From the NCBI GenBank assembly GCA_012934845.2, contig WNNJ02000592.1, forward strand, positions 1 to 64,000: 64,000 nt of DNA, written 5' to 3'. Each line of letters starts with the position of its first letter. The first letter of the stretch is position 1. Both the position numbers and the translations under genes were made by a program. This document shows, piece after piece, positions 21,259 through 53,300 of the stretch. The stretch is from Pomphorhynchus laevis (lineage: Eukaryota; Acanthocephala; Palaeacanthocephala; Echinorhynchida; Pomphorhynchidae). The notes under the pieces were generated by a model. That model saw only the letters and a list, made by a program, of their open reading frames with translations. It was not told the DNA's origin and ran no database searches.

Positions 21259-21268
21259 ACTATAGAGA

Positions 21269-22186
21269 ATGAGCTTAAAGCGTAGCTATTCCGAAGCGAC
21301 AGATAACACGGGAAAACGTACCCTTAAAAAAACTTCATCTTCACGTTGTGATGATACAGATTTAATAAATATCAATATTCCAAAAATAAATAACCGTGAT
21401 GCTCCTGCATCCGTATCACAAACAAATTTGCTTGTCAGTACTCGACAGAAAGGAAACGTCCTTCTTAACTATATAAGAGAAGTACGCTGGCAATTCAGTG
21501 ATTCAATTATTCCTGATTTTGAGTTCAGCAGAACTAATTGTGCAATATTCCTGTCGATACGCTATCATAACTTAAATCCAGAATACATACACAAAAGGAT
21601 TAGCACTCTTCGTAATCGATATTCACTGCGTGTCTTGCTTGTCCACGCGGACGGTTCAAGTGCTATAAACCACGCTTTAAGAGAACTTGCAAAAATGTGT
21701 CTTTTTAGTGATTTGACAATGATTGTATGTTCTGATATACAAGAAATCGCTCTATATCTGGAAGCATACAAAATCCTAGAAAACAAACCACCCGACATGT
21801 TAATGACTAACGCTACACCATTATTAAATACTTACCAGCTAACTAACTCCATTTCAAACAAAAACACTAAACTATCATCAAAAGAGCGGGAAGCTCAACT
21901 TCAACAATCTCGATTAGAATGGAATACGAATAGAGCAAGCGAATTTCTGACGGGGATACGATCTGTGAATACAACTGACGTGAAGGTTTTGATGAAAACA
22001 TTTGGAAACGTAAGAAGCATTTTATGTGCAAGCGAAAGCGATCTATGTGTTTGTCCGGGAATTGGACCATTAAAGACAACGCGAATATGTAGAGCACGTC
22101 TATTACCTTTCCGAACCAATAAAATAATCGAAAATCAATCCTCTACGGATCCCACTGCTGTTAATGTAGCAAGCCCGGCCCAATAA
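21269..22186 (+). CDS. ERCC1: DNA excision repair protein ERCC1
   Basis: Intact 305-residue frame, close to the ~300 residues usual for animal ERCC1. The protein is the non-catalytic partner of XPF/ERCC4 in the nuclear endonuclease that cuts 5' of bulky lesions in nucleotide excision repair and acts in crosslink repair. Residues 61-175 are the central nuclease-like domain that binds DNA and XPA: GNVLLNYIREVRWQFSDSII, CAIFLSIRYHNLNPEYIH, RVLLVHAD, ALRELAKMC and YLEAYKILENKPPDMLM. Residues 225-282 are the tandem helix-hairpin-helix that pairs with XPF, with SVNTTDVKVLMKTFGNV and the hairpin CPGIGPLKT. The Lys/Ser-rich N-terminus (1-58) and the linker 180-222 are lineage-specific. The coding region has no intron, unlike the two other host genes here. 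ATG 21269 is the first in frame, 10 bases after a good splice acceptor. Confidence 0.95.
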   Translation: MSLKRSYSEATDNTGKRTLKKTSSSRCDDTDLININIPKINNRDAPASVSQTNLLVSTRQKGNVLLNYIREVRWQFSDSIIPDFEFSRTNCAIFLSIRYHNLNPEYIHKRISTLRNRYSLRVLLVHADGSSAINHALRELAKMCLFSDLTMIVCSDIQEIALYLEAYKILENKPPDMLMTNATPLLNTYQLTNSISNKNTKLSSKEREAQLQQSRLEWNTNRASEFLTGIRSVNTTDVKVLMKTFGNVRSILCASESDLCVCPGIGPLKTTRICRARLLPFRTNKIIENQSSTDPTAVNVASPAQ

Positions 22187-35300: not shown

Positions 35301-38300
35301 ACCACTTAAAACCTAGATTTTAATTTTAGGTTAATTTTTTTTATTGTAAATCGAACTCACATTCTGTTAATCTAAGTGAAAATGAGTGTTCGTTAATTCG
35401 GCAAGTAAGGAATTTTTTAAATATCGAAACTTCAACTATGTACATTATTCCTGTATTGAAGTGAAAATCAGCTGTAAGGTTTGCTCTTGTCTTGGTAATA
35501 ATTATTTCAATGTGAAGTCGACCGTTTATCTAAAATGTAAAGATAGATTTAATCATTTTAAAAATCATACTCGTCTTTTATTAAAGTATAAGAATATGGA
35601 CAACGCAAATAATAAAAACACAGCAGTAGATTTTCTGCCAAGTATGTGAACAAATCATTTATTTTGTTCACATTAGTGAAGATGTCAACACATTAAAATA
35701 TGCATGTCGCTCAATGCCTACGATGCATTATGGCATCATCCGAACCCCAACAGAAATTACCATCTCATTATCGTAGATTTTAAGTGAATGATAAAAGCTT
35801 TATTCTTATGACGACAAGGTTACTGTATTTAAAACTAGTTATACACTTATTATGCAATCATTCCGATTACGCTATAAACCTATCGTAATTATCAATCATG
35901 TGTATTTTTGTCAGGTACAAACAACTCATGAGATTTTAGAACTTCAACGCAATCAATTGTCATATAATTCGATATAAATCTAATTTAGTGCCACGTATTT
36001 CATCCATATTATGTGGTTTATGAGCCTAATATAAAATATTAGTGCGTATTTTAATCTAGAATTAATTATCTAATCTAGAATTAATTGAAATAATCTAGAA
36101 TTAATTGAAAATTGTGAATTAAGAAAGCTGCTATCAAAAGGGTATAAATATAGATTAAAAATAACAACGACAAAAATAAAATTTACAGTTCGTTATATAA
36201 TAACTTAAATGATTACTTTAGTAAGCTGATTAATAGTGAAAGCTCGAATATATCTAAGATAAAAATTTGGAAAGATTATATATTTGATAAAATTAAAAAT
36301 AAAATGAAAATAACAAACAATTATAAAAGGAAAGATAAAATTAATAAAGATATGTATAAAGAACTTACTAAATTAAAGGATAACTATATAATAACAACTA
36401 TTGATAAAGCTAGTAATAACTTTGTCTTCATATGCAAAAAGCTTTATTATGATATACTAATGAAAGAGGTTAATTCTAATGATTTAAATGTAAATCCAAC
36501 ATATGAACGTAGTGAGTTGAGTTTAGAAACAATTATTACAAGTCACTGTTCTATAATGGATAAAAAGGGTATAAAGGTTGAATCAGATAATAAAACTATA
36601 CCTGTATTATATTGGAATCCAAAATTACATAAAAATTATAGCTGACTTGTTTTTAAGCTTTATAGAATATGAATTTGTTCATAACTGTGTAAAAACTAAA
36701 TCTAAACTATGTAAATATGTGAAATGTATGTTTCGATACATTGATGATTTATGCGTATTTAATTCTAATAATTTTTATTTAATTAGTTAACAAATTTACC
36801 CAGAAAGCCCTATTCTTAACAAAACTAATATTAATGATAAAGAAGGTGTATATCTAGATATGAACATTAAATTAACATTAACTAAAACTACTATTAATTT
36901 ATATCGTAAAGATGACATATTTAAATTACAAGAAACATATTTTTGCATGAGCATTCATGCATACCATATAATATAAAATATAATACATTAAATAATGAAA
37001 TTTTAAGAATTGCAACAATATGTAATGATATTGGCTTTCTTAAAAATCATTTAAATAATTTAATAGATACATATTTTAAACTAGGTTACTATAAAAATAA
37101 CATCAAGCAGAAAATAGTAAAATATATAAATCAACACAATAATATAAAGAATAAATTTAAACTCTTAAGTGGCAAATTTTTATGGATGAATAATAAATAA
37201 TATACTTTGCATTAGAATAAGATACTAGATAGTTATTTCAGAGGAAATACATCATTAGCATGTATTTGGCCCCGCTGCTATGTTGGGTAGAGGAGTTAGG
37301 GGCCGAAACCTGATAGCACAGCAGTTCCTTCTGATGACCTCTAATTCTTATTCTGATACACGTCTGTTATTTATTAGTCAATTCATAAAAATGACGTTTA
37401 TTTTAAATTTTATTTTATTTATTTTTTTTAACTTGATTTAAATTATAGAAAATCTAAAAACAATTATTAATTTTATTATTTAATTATTAAATTTTGATTT
37501 AGCATTATTATGTTTTGTTTATTTTATAATTATATAACAATACGTAGACTCAGTTAGCTGATTTAATTTATATACTGAACACAAAATACCATTCAGATCA
37601 GCAAACTGAGTATACGTATTTTACATTATTTATAAATTAAAAATAACGCTTAATAAAATTTAAATAATAATTATAAATAATAAATTATTGTTATATAAAT
37701 TATAAATGATGTTTAGAATTTGGAATAGAGGTCATCTAGATTAACTGCTATGTTATCCGGTTTCGGCCCCTATTCCTCAACCAAACATATCATATACAAA
37801 TACATGCTAGTGACGTGTTTTATCTGATGAAATTTGATTATCTTGTGTATCTTATTCTAATACAAGGCATATTATTTATCCGAAGATATTCCGCTTAAGA
37901 GTTTAAATTTATTTTTAATAATATATTGTTGATTTATATATTTTACAAATTTCTGTTTAATTTTGTTTTTATAAGAGGCTAGTTTAAAATATGTATCTAT
38001 AAAATTATTAAAATACTTTTGATGAAAGACAATATAATTACATATTATTTTAATACTAAAAATGTCATTATTTGATGTATTATATTTAATATTATATGGT
38101 ATGCATGAATGCTCATGTAAAAATATGTTTCTTATAAATTTAAATATGTCATCTTTACGATATAAATTAATAGTAGTTTTAGTTAATGTTAATTTAATGT
38201 TCATATCTAGATATACACCTTCTTTATCATTAATATTGGTTTTGTTAAGAATAAGGCTTTCTGGATAAATTTGTTCACTAAGAGAATAAAAATTATTACA

Positions 38301-41300
38301 ATTAAATACACATATATCATCAATGTATCGAAACATATTTCATATTTTTATATAATTTAGATTTATTTTTTACACAGTTATAACATATTCTATAAAACTT
38401 AAAAACAAGTCAGCTAATATTGGCATGCTATTACATCCCAATATGCCAGCATTCATTTATATCATATATGAAGTAAATAAAAGCGTAAATTATTTGAACT
38501 CTTTTGGGATCAAGGTTCAGATCTCAGTTAATTTGACCTATCATTCGTCTATTTTCTCTGTATATGTTTCCGCTAATTGTTTTTATGGAAACATTCCAGC
38601 TTACAAGCGAATATTTTTTCAACTTTTGAAAACAAATATTGGAGAACCTGTACTGTATACAACATGCATTAATAACTGGGTAACTGGTGTTCGCAAGAAA
38701 CTTTGGATCAGAGGTAGAATTTCCCCCCCGGGGGGAAAATTCTACCTCTGATGAATAAAAAAATAAAAAATAAAAAAATAAAAAATAAAAAATAAATACA
38801 TAAATAAATTAAAAAAAATAAATAAAATAAATAAATAAATAAAAATCGTTAATCATATTAAACTTTTATTAAATCAAAAATTATATACTGATATTTCTCA
38901 CGATTGTTATAAAATAAACAAAACTCTTTAAGGAAATTGGGTCTATATGTAGTTAATACCCCTTTCTGCTTCTTTATTTCGTTTTTTATTTGGCCGTTAA
39001 AGGACTCCACAGACTGAGTATGAGCACCAGTATTTTTATCAACAAAATTATATTTATGACATACTGTCTTATGTTCATATCCATTTTTATTTAATCTGCT
39101 ATACGACTTGTGCTCGTCGGTCATTATAGTCGAATGGGGAAGCACTTGTGAGGATATTATGGGTAGAATAGTGGTTTGTGCTTTATCCGCGATTACTCTA
39201 GCAAAGGATCTTTCAATTTTATCCCCGACCTCGACAATACACAAAGCGTCGGTTCTGTTTGTGTAAGATCTTCCACGATGAGACTTACACTTGTAATTTA
39301 ACATGGTTTCATCTATTTGCACTATTTTTCCAGGGCCACCAAGTTTATCTTCACTAAAATCAGTTTCCGGTATCAACTTATTAAGTTTATAAAAAATTTT
39401 TCTAATGGTCCGATCCGATGTAATTTTAGAGGCTATTATTGAGTGTGTTGGCTGCTTCACACATTTCTTGATTAACACACGTAAAATAGTTCTAATATCA
39501 ATCGAAAACCCATCAAAAAAACTTCCCTTTCGTATTGAAATGTATTTTTTTAAGTTTGTGCAGCCATTCTTATAACACCTCCAACCATATCCATCAATAG
39601 AACGTTTATAAAGACTAAGCTTCATATAAGTATCACAGATAATGCATTTCATAGACCGAACTAAATACCTTGAATCAAACAAGTGGTCTATAAAATCTTG
39701 CTGTGTTGAGCTAATTATTAGCTGTTCGTAGTGATCTAGGTTATCCATGGGGTAAATCTGAATTTTTTTATTTATAGTTTAGGAGGAAAAAAAGTAGCTG
39801 TTCGTAGTGATCTAGGGGGGGAAATTTTACCTCTGATCGCCTAGGGGGGGAAATTCTACCTCTGATCCGAAACTTTAGATGTAAAGCTAATGCTAAAGTC
39901 TTATTAAGATGTTGAGTGAAGCACTAGATAATGTGTCTGTAAATTGTATATATACATGATTATGCTGACAAAATACAATCTTAATAATAAATATCATCCA
40001 ACGAGTAAGCGAGCAATAGTTTGCTAGTTTCGTCATTTTTATTAACTTCCAATCTCATTAATTATATTGTGTGAGCCGGATGTTTAGAACTGGATATGCA
40101 CAAATAATTTTGAGAGATCAATAATTTGTAATTAATCAGCAATTATATATTATATACAAATTAAATCAGCTAACTGAGTCTACGTATTGTTATATAATTA
40201 TAAAATAAACAAAACATAATAATGCTAAATCAAAATTTAATAATTAAATAATAAAATTAATAATTGTTTTTAGATTTTCTATAATTTAAATCAAGTTAAA
40301 AATAAAAAAATTAAAATTTAAAATAAACGTCATTTTTATGAATTGACTAATAAATAACAGACGTTGTATCAGAATAAGAATTAGAGGTCATCAAGAGGAA
40401 CTGCTATGCTATCAGGTTTCGGCCCCTAACTCCTCTACCCAACATAGCAGCGGGGCCAAATACATGCTAATGATGTATTTCCTCTGAAATAAGTATCTAG
40501 TATCTTATTCTAATGCAAAGTATATTATTTATTATTTATCCATAAAAATTTGCCACTTTAGAGTTTAAATTTATTCTTTATATTATTGTGTTGATTTATA
40601 TATTTTACTATTTTCTGCTTGATGTTATTTTTATAGTAACCTAGTTTAAAATAGGTATCTATTAAATTATTTAAATGATTTTGAAGAAAGCCAATATCAT
40701 TACATATTGTTGCAATTCTTAAAATTTCATTATTTAATGTATTATATTTTATATTATATGGTATGCATGAATGCTCATGCAAAAATATGTTTCTTGTAAA
40801 TTTAAATATGTCATCTTTACGATATAAATTAATAGTAGTTTTAGTTAATGTTAATTTAATGTTCATATCTAGATATACACCTTCTTTATCATTAATATTG
40901 GTTTTGTTAAGAATAAGGCTTTTTGGATAAATGTGCTCACTAATTGAATAAAAATTATTAGAATTAAATACACATATATCATCAATGTATCGAAATATAT
41001 ATTTCATATATTTATATTGTTTAGATTTAGTTTTTACACAGTTATGAACAAATTAATATTCTATAAAGCTTAAAGTTATAATTAAATATTATAATTATAT
41101 ATAAAGTTTAGAACTTAATATATATTTTAAATTTTGGAATATATTATAACAAAAAACACAACGCGTATTCAACCAAAAATCAATTCACTAAGATGGCAAG
41201 TTTAAATAATGTCTATAATGTTATGTTACAAGTTTATAATGTTATGTTTAATTCAATAAAATAGATTTTGATTGTCACTGATTTTAATATCTTTTAAATA

Positions 41301-47300: not shown

Positions 47301-50300
47301 AAAATTAATCTTTATTCTCGCTATTTTTTAGATTTCCTCGTCGAAATATTATTATGATTTATAAGAGCGTTACTACTGCTTTTGAAAAATGCATTCCGAT
47401 GAGTTTCAATCGAATTTAATTTATTTGGATCTTATGTCGATTTTTAGTGATTAAGTTGTCAAGCCGTATGGAGTAAATAATGAAAATGTGTTCTTACCAT
47501 ATTCACATCGATGCCCGTCGAAAATAGTTTTGCTGCAATTGCATGTAACCGTCAGCAGTGCAGACGTATTTTCGATACAATCAGAATCATTTATGCACAT
47601 GAAGTCCAAACATTGAGGTAATCCAGCTAACGAAAAAGTAAAAATACATACTCGATTGCAGATATTATTTCTTGATTATCAAAATTGATATTAACTGAAA
47701 ATACTTGAATATAAATTAAAATTGAGTTTCATGCCCTCTTTTTTACTTTATAATAAGGAAGTTTATATCCCTTTCGTGTAATTAATTGAAATTATAATAA
47801 TTTATTTTAATTTAAAATGCTAGTTAGACACAAAAATAGATAATAGAGTTCTACTAACTTAGTTGTTAAAATATTACGAATATTATGACAATTGCATTAT
47901 TGCCTAAAATTAATTCCATATATTAATTTATACCTAATAATTAATGGAAACTGTTTAATAGAATAAACAAACAAATAATATAAACACGATTTTTTAATTT
48001 AAAATTTTATCATATCTAATAAAAAAAATCGACATCTTGAAAAATGAAAAAGCACCGTTTTATCACTAAAGTGCATGCAGGTATTTTTTCAAAAATTAAA
48101 AATATTTTTTACCTTAAGATATAAAGAACACAAATTTTAATTTACCATGAATAGATATGTGCTTAAAAATTAGCATATACCAGATAATATTAAAAATTTG
48201 CCTGGTAATTAATTCATGTTTAGTTCATAACATGTAACCTCAGTTAAGGGGTTACTACTGTATCTTAAATTTTCTAAGTAGTTAAGAAAAATTCTAATAG
48301 TACAGTAAATATTTTTAGCAAACTTGATATCTTTATTTCAGCTTAAGCTTTTTCAGTTGCCAGCAACACATTTTTTCAAAAGTAGATTTCTACATATGCA
48401 AAAAGGATATCATATAGATGATCCCGCCAACTGTCGGTTTAACAATCACTATATATGGCTGGCAAATATTAGGGATTAGGTATATAATCTAAAATACTAA
48501 ACAAAGACATTGTGTTTGTACAGCACAATATACAAACACAACTTGTGATTGTCTCCAATCATAAATCTCACAATTACAAATTAAAATATGGCAAAAACAA
48601 AAAATGCTTATTTTTGTTTATAAATATATTTATATTTATTTTAAATATTTGTAATATTCAAAATATATTAATTGTTACAAACTTTGCAACTTTATAGATT
48701 GTAAATTTATTAAAAATGAACGAAATAATTACAATATTTATAGCAATTATAACTACTCAGAATTCAGATCTTTAGTTAGATTTACAATCTAAAAGGAAAG
48801 CATTATACTCCTCATCTACATTTAATTATATAACGCATTATATAACATAACATTTACTTAAATAAACAAAATTTGTTAATTGTTTCCACTGATCTGGAGA
48901 TCGGGTTGTGGAAACAGTGCACAGACGTGACCAAATAGCACGGTCTTGAGTGGCTAGCCAGACTTCCATTTCAGATAGTTCTAAGTGTTCTTTGGAAAGA
49001 TGGACAGTTTGATCTTTCTAACTATACCGAGGTATGCCTCGGGGTCTCCGTCCAGAAAGTTTAATCTGGAACACATGTTTATAGTACCAAATAATAGGCA
49101 AAACATCAAGAAATAATTGATTTTGATCTATTTCTGTTGCTCTTAACCCGTATTTTGGAGCTGGATCAGACAAGTAAAAAGAAAATGATAGATCTTAGTC
49201 AACAGCGGATCAAATATCAAATATTGTTGATCCAGTGTTCAAATAATTAAAACCAAATTGATTTTGCTCAGATGCTGCTAATATTGAATAAAGTGGTTTC
49301 ATTATATTTTCCTTAGATGATGCAATTCCAAAGTAGAGATTTAAGTAATATGTTATCGTATTTTATAAAAGTAGTATGTTATTGTATTTCACCGACAAGT
49401 GAAAAGATTTTAAACATAATGAAATGTTTAACAAAATAAAATGCGATAAAGCAGAAATGTATTTTTTTAGTTTTACACACAAGGCGAAATAATAATATAG
49501 TAATTATAATAATGGTATATTAATTGTAAACCATGTCGTTTAACTTAGTTTGAGATTTTTTCTTTAGGTAAACTTTATCTATGGTAATATAGTAGATATT
49601 ACATGATAGTACTTTTCAAAGGAGAGTAAGACCATTCCGCGTGAAATACGTTGTTATCATTGAAGCCAGACGCGGAAGAACGACGATAACAGTAGCAAGT
49701 ACCGTTTCGTCATCACAATGACTCATCAGTACCAGATCCCTTCCACTACTGGATGCAGATTAGGACTGACAGACGGCACACGAGTTATGCGTATGAAGTA
49801 CCAGAAATATACTACCAGACTGATAAGTACCAGAATGATAACAACGTATTTCACGCGAAATGGTATCACTCTCCTTGGAGATTCATGATTAAAGTTAGCC
49901 GATATAAAAGATACCTGCGCTGGCATTTGCCAGTGCTTTTGCTAATGATCCTATTTAGTGAAGCAGTAGTGCTGATTTAGAACTCAATGTAAAGTTACCA
50001 GGAATCTTTCTGGTACTTCATACATGACTCGTGTGCCGTCTATCAGTCCTAATCTGCATCCAGTAGTGGAAGGGCTGGTACTGATGAGTAATTGTTGACG
50101 AAACGGCCTACTGCTATGTCGTTTTTTTGCTAATGATCCTATTTAGTGAAGCAGTAGTGCTGATTTAGAACTCAATGTGAAGTTACCAGAAATCTTTCTG
50201 GTACTTCATACACATGACTCGTGTGCCGTCTGTCAATCCTCCTCTGCATCCAGTAGTGGAAGGGATCTGGTACTGATGAGTAATTGTGATGACGAAACGG

Positions 50301-53300
50301 TACTTGCTACTGCTATCCTCGTTCTTTCGCGTCTGGCTTCAATGATAACAACGTATTTCACGCGGAATGGTCTCACTCTCCATTGAGATTCATGATTAAA
50401 GTTAGCTGATATAAAAGATACCTGCGCTGGCATTTGCCAGTGATTTTGCTAATGATCCTATTTAGTGAAGCAGTAGTGCTGATTTAGCACTCAATGTGAA
50501 GTTACCAGAAATCTTTCTGGTACTTCATATAACTTAGCTCGTGTGCCGTCTGTCAGTCCTCCTCTGCATCCAGTAGTGGAAGGGATCGTGTACTGATGAG
50601 TAATTGTGATGACGAAACGGTACTTGCTACTGTTATCGTCGTTCTTCCGCGTCTGGCTTCAATAATACTACTTATAAATATTTTTATATTTATTTATTTA
50701 ATATTTATCTTATAAATATTTTTAAAATACAAAATATTGACTTTTCCTTCATTCAAAAATATTTCTCAGTCTTCTCACCATCAAAAATAAGACAATTAAA
50801 GAATTGATGTGCAATTAAATCTAAGTTACATACTAAACCAGCAGTAAATCAAATATGCTTTACGCAAAGATACATTTACGCTGTATATCACAACAATACA
50901 TGACAGATACAATAACAGTGACTCGAGTTTTATTTCGATCACAAACTGAACAATAATATTATTGGATCGTTAATTGAAAAGATCATTATATCATATATTA
51001 GAAATTTATACTAAATGCCTGTTAATTAGGAACATTAAATTTGCTTACGTCGCATTTTAATGCATTTTCACTAAGAAAATGAATTGAGAATAATTAATCT
51101 AAAATACTGAAGAATTAATCTAAAATACTAATGATTTATTTAATAATAAATATTATTAATATAATTATTATATAATATAATATCAATATTATAATGTTAT
51201 ATAATATAATATTATTATATAAATAATATTAATTATTATTAATACCAATTATTTGAACAATAATTGCTCGCAATAATTTGACTAAGGTAAGTAACAGTTT
51301 ATTACCATTAACTAAAATACTGTATATTATACATGCACGGTACACACCTATTTCGCTGTTTATTTACTAAATATTTTTTGATTATTAACTTATTAAAACA
51401 AAATCCTGCTTATAAATAATGTTATACGTATTTTCTTACTTGAATTACTGAAAGAAATTGAATACTAACCGTTAAGATTAGCTTCTGTTTTTAAATCCAC
51501 TGACGATGATATTGAAAAATATTCTTCAGCAACATTAACCAGATTTCCGTTCAATAAAATCGTAGCAATAGATCCAATAAAACTCGATGTTGTATATGGC
51601 AGGTACATATCAATCTCAAGTTTAAGTCGATCAGGTAAGCCACCAATGTAAAGCAGAGCATCGTTGAACATTCGAGGATTTGTCCATTCCCCACCTATGA
51701 ATTGGCTAACCTTGGCATTGTCGATTTTCATCACAGCTCTTAAAACGAATTTAAAAAGCAATAATAAGATTTTAAAGTTGAAACTTAAATTGGCATAATC
51801 AAATATCTAAAATATATATAACTATGTACGAATTTAACATTCAAATACAAATACGATTTTAGTTTTCTCAAGTTACATTTGTAAGCGACAAATATTTGCT
51901 CTTATGTTGAAGTCGAACGTATTATGATTTTTTGAAAAAATAAATGCTTTTCTTAATTTTATTTAGCGTCGGTTGGAATATGTTTGGATGTAACAGTAAT
52001 CTTAGAGAGAAATACTCTTTTTAGCATAATTAAAAAGCTTTAATAATTCAAACTATTACTATTATTTCTAGTAATTATGACCAGGCAATGGTTCGTCTAA
52101 ATATTCTATAGTGTTGTCTGAAGAGGCCAATCGCATTGACGAAAATTCAAAAATTAAACTATTTTCTTATTTTTCTAAGAGAAAGAGCCAACTAATGATT
52201 ACATTCTATCCGGACGCAATTTTAAAAGACAAAATATTCTATTTTTAAAATGAACCCTTTATTGGCTGTCATACAAGAAGTGTGCTCAACCACTCCCTGT
52301 CTTCACCAGTCGAGTAAAATACCTGGGGTTCACCGTTACGGTGAACTGGTCGGCGAAAGCTGACCTGGATAGACTTAAACGTATCCTGAAGAGAGCTAGA
52401 TGGGCCCTGAAACGGGCCCAGCATTTGTCATTGCGAGGAAAACCCCAGGTGCGCCTCTGGGGCACCTGGGCTATCTCGGGATTAGTCTTCTTCTCAAGAA
52501 GACGTCCCATAGAGCAAAGACTAATGTTTCTAAAGCTCCTCCGCTCTCGTTTACTCAGCATAGTCCGTGCCGACTGGACTTTTCGGGGGTGAATGATCCG
52601 GGTGGTTTAGTCGGAAGTCGGCATGTTGAATCGGTTGGGGGCTCAGATCTTCCTGGATTTGAGGCCGTAAGTGCAGGGAAGACAAAGGAGAAGCAAAGAA
52701 GATATTATTGTCGAACTCTGATTATGCCTTATACTATTTATTTTGGATGTTTTCTGTGCTAGTTAACAAAGTCCTTATTTATTTATTTTGCTTGCGATAA
52801 TTTCGCTTTCAAGCTAATATCTATTATTCGTTTATCATTCATTTGTTGTTCGTTGTTTTATCCGTCGATATGCTACTGTCTGGTAATAAGAGCACAGTAA
52901 CAAGGTATGGCCAGTATATTTACAATCAATGGCTCTAAAGACTTATATGGTCTATGTAAATGATCATTGACAGATCGTGTTTTGTGTTTGCAACTTTCAA
53001 TGTTTAATATAAAAGAAAGTGTTAGAATAATGTTATACCAGCCTATATCATCTCTAAAATGTGTTTATGCCTTATGTTTCATAATTAAAACAAAGCAAAA
53101 ATATCTTTACAATTACTTATTTACTTTGCGTAAACAATTTGGATATATTATTTCATTTGGTCGTGATAATTGCGAAACTGGATTGGAAAATATGTTAGCT
53201 ATTAGCATATTCATAAAAATTGACTATTAATTTAAATTTAAATTTTAACTTGATATAAATTATTTAAAATTTTATTTGGATTTTATTTAGCATTAATTTT

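Follow-up and report, generated by a model that had tools for sequence, protein, structure and literature searches.

A type III hammerhead retrozyme family in the acanthocephalan Pomphorhynchus laevis, probably mobilized by Penelope-like elements

A stretch of 64,000 nucleotides from the acanthocephalan Pomphorhynchus laevis (contig WNNJ02000592.1, positions 1 to 64,000; hereafter the window) carries a short array of hammerhead ribozymes (HHRs) belonging to a dispersed non-coding retroelement. We read this family as an animal retrozyme whose HHR is unusual in being of type III and which is probably mobilized by Penelope-like elements (PLEs) from self-cleaved, multimeric or circular RNA.

From 5' to 3', the motif consists of GTGCCGTC, the cleavage site, TGTCAG or TGCCAG, an arm of ~30 nt that contains an extra hairpin, CTGGTA or CTGGCA, CTGATGA, helix II with a UGUG loop, GAAA and CGGTAC. 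The four copies described in an initial annotation of the window, one of them shortened, were confirmed by direct reading to contain CTGATGA, GAAA and the GTC triplet. In addition to what had been annotated, helix I was found to extend beyond TGTCAG/CTGGTA into the extra hairpin. Since helix III is closed only by the remainder of the 294–325-nt unit, the topology is type III. In each window copy, pairing was scored over 6 pairs of helix I, 5 of helix II and 6 of helix III. In 149 copies gathered genome-wide with a pattern favouring the core, standard pairs occurred in 93.0% of cells, compared with 30–67% in slid-partner controls, and the extra helices 4 and 5 paired in 89.5 and 95.5% of cells, respectively. 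The strict core (CUGAUGA, GAAA and an NUH triplet) was present in 107 of the 149 copies, and two of the four window copies were intact by the helix thresholds. A check against the Rfam covariance models, suggested with the initial annotation, matched RF00008, but at 18.9 and 17.5 bits, below its gathering score of 48.5. The motif was therefore not filed as an RF00008 member, and its topology rests on the pairing.

The genome survey covered 249 Mb in 3,242 contigs; the published genome is reported as 260 Mb in 4,021 contigs with 32.9% GC (PMC7310846; here and below, statements from the literature are limited to the available parts of the cited papers). The 26-nt core, with up to 3 mismatches, was found at 2,855 places (1,503 + 1,352), and the reversed control at none. 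Units are 294–325 nt long with a GC content of 0.41–0.45. Between the two type III subfamilies the HHR domain is 82.8% identical, compared with 68.9% for the remaining unit. The second subfamily (L050, L059, L062, L076 and others) carries GATTCATTCATTGATT ahead of the cleavage site and, in helix III, CGGCAT. Identity is 0.946 within arrays and 0.876 between arrays, and two pairs of array-sized segmental duplicates were found (L018/L026 and L066/L076). One array (L019:1327-3270) repeats its unit lengths as 325, 325 and 294 nt, as if copied from a trimer. Among stop-to-stop frames of at least 90 aa, the longest one starting inside the window array has 94 aa. Since it has no coding capacity for a reverse transcriptase (RT) or a GIY-YIG endonuclease, the element is not itself a PLE and is at most mobilized by one.

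The positions at which arrays end were then expressed in a unit coordinate, q, where q1 is the base directly 3' of the predicted cleavage site. The loci analysed were the best genome-search matches plus the first-listed core-match places and are not a random sample; 3 of 63 blocks were dropped because they touched a locus end, and removal of the duplicates L026 and L076 left 58 arrays with 87 3' ends and 29 outer 5' ends. Six of the 29 outer 5' ends fall at q1–2, that is, at the predicted cleavage site (p 2e-7 versus uniform); with the two duplicates included the count is 6/31, of which five are at q1 and one is at q2. Head-to-head junctions inside the arrays give 78 more ends, 12 of them within q322–3 (p 1e-7), a count to which L057 supplies three near-identical junctions. 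These 5' ends at the predicted bond are the indirect sign of a putative self-cleavage, and such footprints suggest ribozyme activity in vivo.

Of the 87 3' ends, 74 lie in q101–180, in two groups near q123 and q168, about 45 nt apart. All 39 strand switches are head-to-head and none is tail-to-tail. One short (~q123) and one long (~q168) 3' end are combined in 20 of the 29 head-to-head arrays, against a mean of 11.2 when ends are shuffled (p 1.5e-4), in a count that still included L026 and L076 (then 76/89 3' ends in q101–180). Single-direction arrays (n = 29) use either site, 12 the long and 11 the short one. Low-identity AT-rich stretches of the unit (q106–120 and q151–180) may sharpen the two 3' peaks by some bases; they cannot explain why ends avoid q181–325. 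Exact repeats of at least 10 nt resembling target-site duplications (TSDs) flank 20 of the 58 arrays, compared with 0.5 expected from mispaired flanks. The insertion flanks have a GC content of 0.21, versus 0.30 a few hundred bases upstream, and no poly-A or simple-repeat tail was seen by eye at the array 3' ends inspected. The suggestion made from the window sequence, an unusual type III animal form of retrozyme-like character, is thus supported by copy number, unit length and the open helix III, as well as by the TSD-like repeats and the 5' ends at the cleavage site.

A second family, with 295-nt units and a type I HHR, occurs in the same genome, and 62 of its 65 listed matches pass the RF00163 cut-off. 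Homology between the type I and type III units was considered and rejected, as they have only chance matches of 13–16 nt in common. Nine type I loci were read. All five head-to-head arrays in which both outer ends were available end at q121–130 on one side and at q157–173 on the other, with several ends lying within (TA)n runs that make the exact position uncertain. One array (L096) starts exactly at its own cleavage site, and another (L092) has a 3' end off the pattern, at q220.

This architecture can be set beside what is known of PLEs. At AT-rich sites, a purified PLE protein of the anole lizard cleaves the two strands of the target and extends both. It initiates reverse transcription internally, at two neighbouring positions, and the sequence separating these makes up the 'tail' of copies in the genome, described by the authors as unique to PLEs (PMC11167929). 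Rotifer PLEs have head-to-head inverted pseudo-long terminal repeats (pLTRs), one of which bears a 31-bp tail, and their TSDs are 8–10 bp long (PMC3846280). In P. laevis, PLEs account for about 15% of the transposable element content (PMC7943196).

In the mechanism we propose, tandem copies would be transcribed and then cleaved after GTC by their HHRs into RNAs of one or several units, part of which could be closed into circles. A PLE endonuclease/reverse transcriptase would nick the two strands of AT-rich DNA. Each nick would prime reverse transcription at one of two internal RNA sites, which lie about 123 and 168 nt 3' of the cleavage site. Synthesis would proceed 5'-ward and either halt at the cleaved 5' end or run through several units, and joining of the two cDNAs head-to-head would yield the inverted arrays. 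The cleavage, the circles and the enzyme acting as helper are what we infer from the sequences, copy number, end positions and TSD-like repeats observed. Animal retrozymes of both topologies might, in a wider reading for which we see about equal weight on either side, be parasites of PLEs similar to short interspersed nuclear elements (SINEs), with self-cleaved RNA as the template and the ribozyme type interchangeable. Their RNA would offer two internal start sites, ~123 and ~168 nt beyond the ribozyme cut. The 5' end of the template would then be recorded in the genome, and the ribozyme would need only to cut at that distance.

GIY-YIG domains are present in the genome, with at least 75 matches among the 150 of 795 candidates that were scored, and one of these frames we take to be PLE-like from its motifs. 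At one locus (L044:1213-2620), a retrozyme array lies inside a GIY-YIG-like frame upstream of an RT-like frame, with the endonuclease before the reverse transcriptase; the RT-like frame gave no Pfam hit and is presumably a reverse transcriptase by its motifs. When PLE-like stretches in the window and at locus L097 were searched for an HHR or a pLTR, there was no Rfam match and one unlikely motif match.

Several results weigh against the proposed mobilization of a type III retrozyme by PLEs. The anole PLE's own HHR is dispensable for insertion in vitro, and no reads begin or end at its cleavage site (PMC11167929), unlike the 5' ends of the retrozyme described here, which do fall on the cut. A complete PLE, pLTR and tail included, was not reconstructed in this genome, and unequal crossing-over could likewise have expanded the tandem copies. 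Nine of the 29 head-to-head arrays depart from the one-short/one-long rule (both ends are long in two, and in seven one end falls in neither window), and the end classes behind it, A (q140–180) and B (q100–135), were chosen after the data had been seen. Moreover, 38 of the 58 arrays have no exact flanking repeat of at least 10 nt. With regard to the ribozyme, no match in the window reaches any Rfam gathering score (RF00008, E 0.63 and 1.6), the canonical HHR is the minimum-energy fold in just 30 of the 149 copies when flanks are included and in none of the four window copies, and the covariation score of 0.090 is not above that of shuffles (0.092). A competing fold pairs ribozyme strands with the sequence just upstream in 88% of cells in one subfamily.

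The isolated domains behaved differently from those with flanks, the canonical three-helix HHR being the minimum-energy fold in 91 of 149. The window copies, singled out in the initial annotation, are not the best-folding members of the family; since the canonical fold is not their minimum-energy fold, they may have weakened or decayed while the family as a whole is sound. For the compensatory changes considered there, 12 both-side cells were counted, compared with 8.6 in shuffles (60 of 500 shuffles were as high). This signal is weak because the copies are young and alike, and covariation was set aside as a proof, there being too little variation. For the competing fold, 15 both-side cells were found compared with 9.1 in shuffles (12/500). 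It was considered as a conserved switch and rejected in that role, being weaker in the second subfamily; as a side idea, it could in one subfamily switch between cutting and the sealed circle. When folded as a circle, one subfamily 2 unit (L050) has the canonical HHR as its minimum-energy fold, and the circular-fold z-scores of five units were -5.5, -1.8, -3.3, -1.3 and -2.4.

Twin priming yields head-to-head inversions and TSDs, and the retrozyme could have been mobilized in this ordinary way by long interspersed nuclear elements (LINEs), with inversions and TSDs of 11–14 nt arising via target-primed reverse transcription. The TSD-like repeats at 20 of the 58 arrays fit this explanation, but two fixed internal 3' ends about 45 nt apart, one per side and in two unrelated families, are to our knowledge no LINE signature, and the inspected array 3' ends have neither a poly-A nor a simple-repeat tail. 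P. laevis is rich in LINEs (PMC7310846), while the two-site start is called unique to PLEs (PMC11167929). On balance, mobilization by LINEs appears unlikely.

The initial annotation had left the choice between a retrozyme-like element and a self-cleaving satellite. The first part held, and a plain satellite is less likely because the arrays are short, dispersed and end at preferred unit positions. An ordinary satellite with a relic or accidental HHR-like motif, spread by unequal crossing-over and DNA-level transposition with no RNA step, would account for the tandem arrays, for their greater likeness within than between arrays and for the array-sized segmental duplicates. It fits poorly with TSD-like repeats around short dispersed arrays, with array and junction 5' ends exactly at the predicted cleavage bond and with a core kept across subfamilies, and we consider it very unlikely. 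Finally, a foldback or MITE-like (miniature inverted-repeat) DNA transposon, whose inverted arms would be terminal inverted repeats moved by a transposase, is the least probable of all and hardly credible: 29 of the 58 arrays do have inverted arms with both 3' ends outward and the window contains a DDE_Tnp_IS1595 transposase gene, but the arms are asymmetrical, only one of them carrying a tail, half of the arrays run in a single direction, the 5' ends vary apart from the cleavage-site peak and the TSD-like repeats are variable in length.

The array in the window is a single insertion of this element (locus L001; L001 position + 48115 = window position), the parts of which are given in Table 1. 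Both of its arms point their 3' ends outward, the left one ending at q168, with the tail, and the right one at q119, without it. The inverted arm has one HHR and the direct arm three. The annotated spacing of 320 nt between the two right-hand copies and the inversion of the left arm were both reproduced. The first stretch of direct copies is ended by an internal deletion from q100 to q220 (direct-direct junction at L001 2010-2015). At this insertion the automatic TSD test gave no more than 5 exact nt.

Table 1. Parts of the retrozyme insertion in the window, and the type I loci read for comparison.
Feature	Position in window	Strand	Remarks
Whole retrozyme insertion, ~1.06 kb	49610..50667		inverted arm, then direct copies
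Possible left target-site duplicate ATAGTACTT	49606..49614	+	8/9 match to right; uncertain
Inverted arm	49610..49810	-	q168 back to q1, then q325-287
Type III HHR	49699..49779	-	helices I/II/III pair 6/5/6
Predicted cleavage of the (-) HHR 49699..49779	after GTC, its C = 49772	-	
Head-to-head junction of inverted and direct arms, 23 nt	49811..49833		
5'-truncated first direct unit and part of second	49834..50130	+	starts at q111; second up to q100
HHR copy, shortened helix II	50033..50109	+	core present; rated not intact; pairs 6/3/5
HHR copy	50223..50303	+	pairs 5/4/6; predicted cleavage after 50230
Complete unit, 320 nt	50231..50550	+	cleavage site to cleavage site
HHR copy, weakened helix I (4/6 pairs)	50543..50623	+	pairs 4/4/6; predicted cleavage after 50550
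Possible right target-site duplicate ATACTACTT	50665..50673	+	
Type I loci L088-L096			contigs C2913, C1798, C1793, C308, C1461, C1875, C2301, C518, C2902

The array had been placed in an intron of an animal receptor gene. This was not borne out, as the two flanking exon-like open reading frames (ORFs) gave no useful PDB match and one of the two had a sub-threshold Laminin_G_2 match (E 0.15). Elsewhere in the window, positions 36154-41052 hold three inverted or repeated pieces of one RT-like element, which resemble pieces in the flanks of retrozyme loci. A LINE frame has a single match at E <= 0.001 among 5.8 billion proteins, a P. laevis protein 79% identical. The transposase mentioned above is an open frame of 306 aa at 38858-39778 on the minus strand (72.7 bits), and an ERCC1/Rad10 gene at 21266-22186 (+) is a single open frame and, compared with other animals, has a very long branch.

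It is a standing question what mobilizes animal retrozymes and whether their ribozyme takes part in the template. The common end architecture of two unrelated ribozyme families is positional evidence on it that can be tested in any sequenced animal. If the reading is true, the type III HHRs of animals would comprise, beyond isolated motifs, a mobile family with thousands of copies. A literature search of partial coverage returned no paper that ties retrozymes to the PLE tail or describes animal type III retrozymes, and the reading of the PLE-tail mechanism for retrozymes is new to us.

Among known systems, again as far as the available parts of the papers describe them, the closest are the metazoan non-LTR (long terminal repeat) retrozymes (PMC7229834, PMC7761336). 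They have tandem units of ~150–450 bp with low GC and one HHR per unit, TSDs of more than 4 bp and arrangements from dimers to multimers, and PLEs occur in the same genomes. Since these were described with type I HHRs and that of P. laevis is type III, the present family is a variant of them. PLEs were proposed as their helper from coexistence, with no conserved helper motif described in those parts of the papers, whereas in P. laevis it is the end architecture that points to PLEs. The plant LTR retrozymes (PMC7229834, PMC7761336) are likewise non-coding, with type III HHRs and tandem or dimer units, but their units are of ~700 bp and their TSDs of 4 bp, compared with 294–325 nt and TSD-like repeats of ~10–14 nt here; in addition, the P. 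laevis family is animal-hosted and no LTR arrangement was seen (primer-binding site and polypurine tract were not searched).

With PLEs (PMC11167929, PMC3846280), the family shares head-to-head inverted copies, a one-sided tail, AT-rich targets, TSDs, an association with HHRs and two 3' starts separated by some tens of nt. It differs in being non-coding, in a tail of ~45 nt rather than 30–40 and in a type III rather than a minimal type I HHR. In the anole PLE the HHR cut lies 26 nt and the RT start 111–118 nt from the ORF start (PMC11167929), so that the distance from cut to start is ~85–92 nt, for one site, compared with ~123 and ~168 nt in the P. laevis retrozyme.

As for the ribozyme, the atypical type III HHRs of hepatitis delta virus (HDV)-like RNAs, termites and dipterans (PMC7936874) also begin helix I with a short stem, which is followed by an internal loop and an additional hairpin, while their GCCR/YGGC loop pairing is absent in P. 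laevis, where loop II is UGUG. The same work announces unpublished dipteran type III motifs. The discontinuous HHR of mammalian Clec2 genes (PMC6155905) is an animal type III ribozyme too, but it is one domesticated motif whose helix I is very long. The termite genomic type III HHRs are reported as isolated motifs (PMC7936874), in contrast to the thousands of tandem mobile copies in P. laevis.

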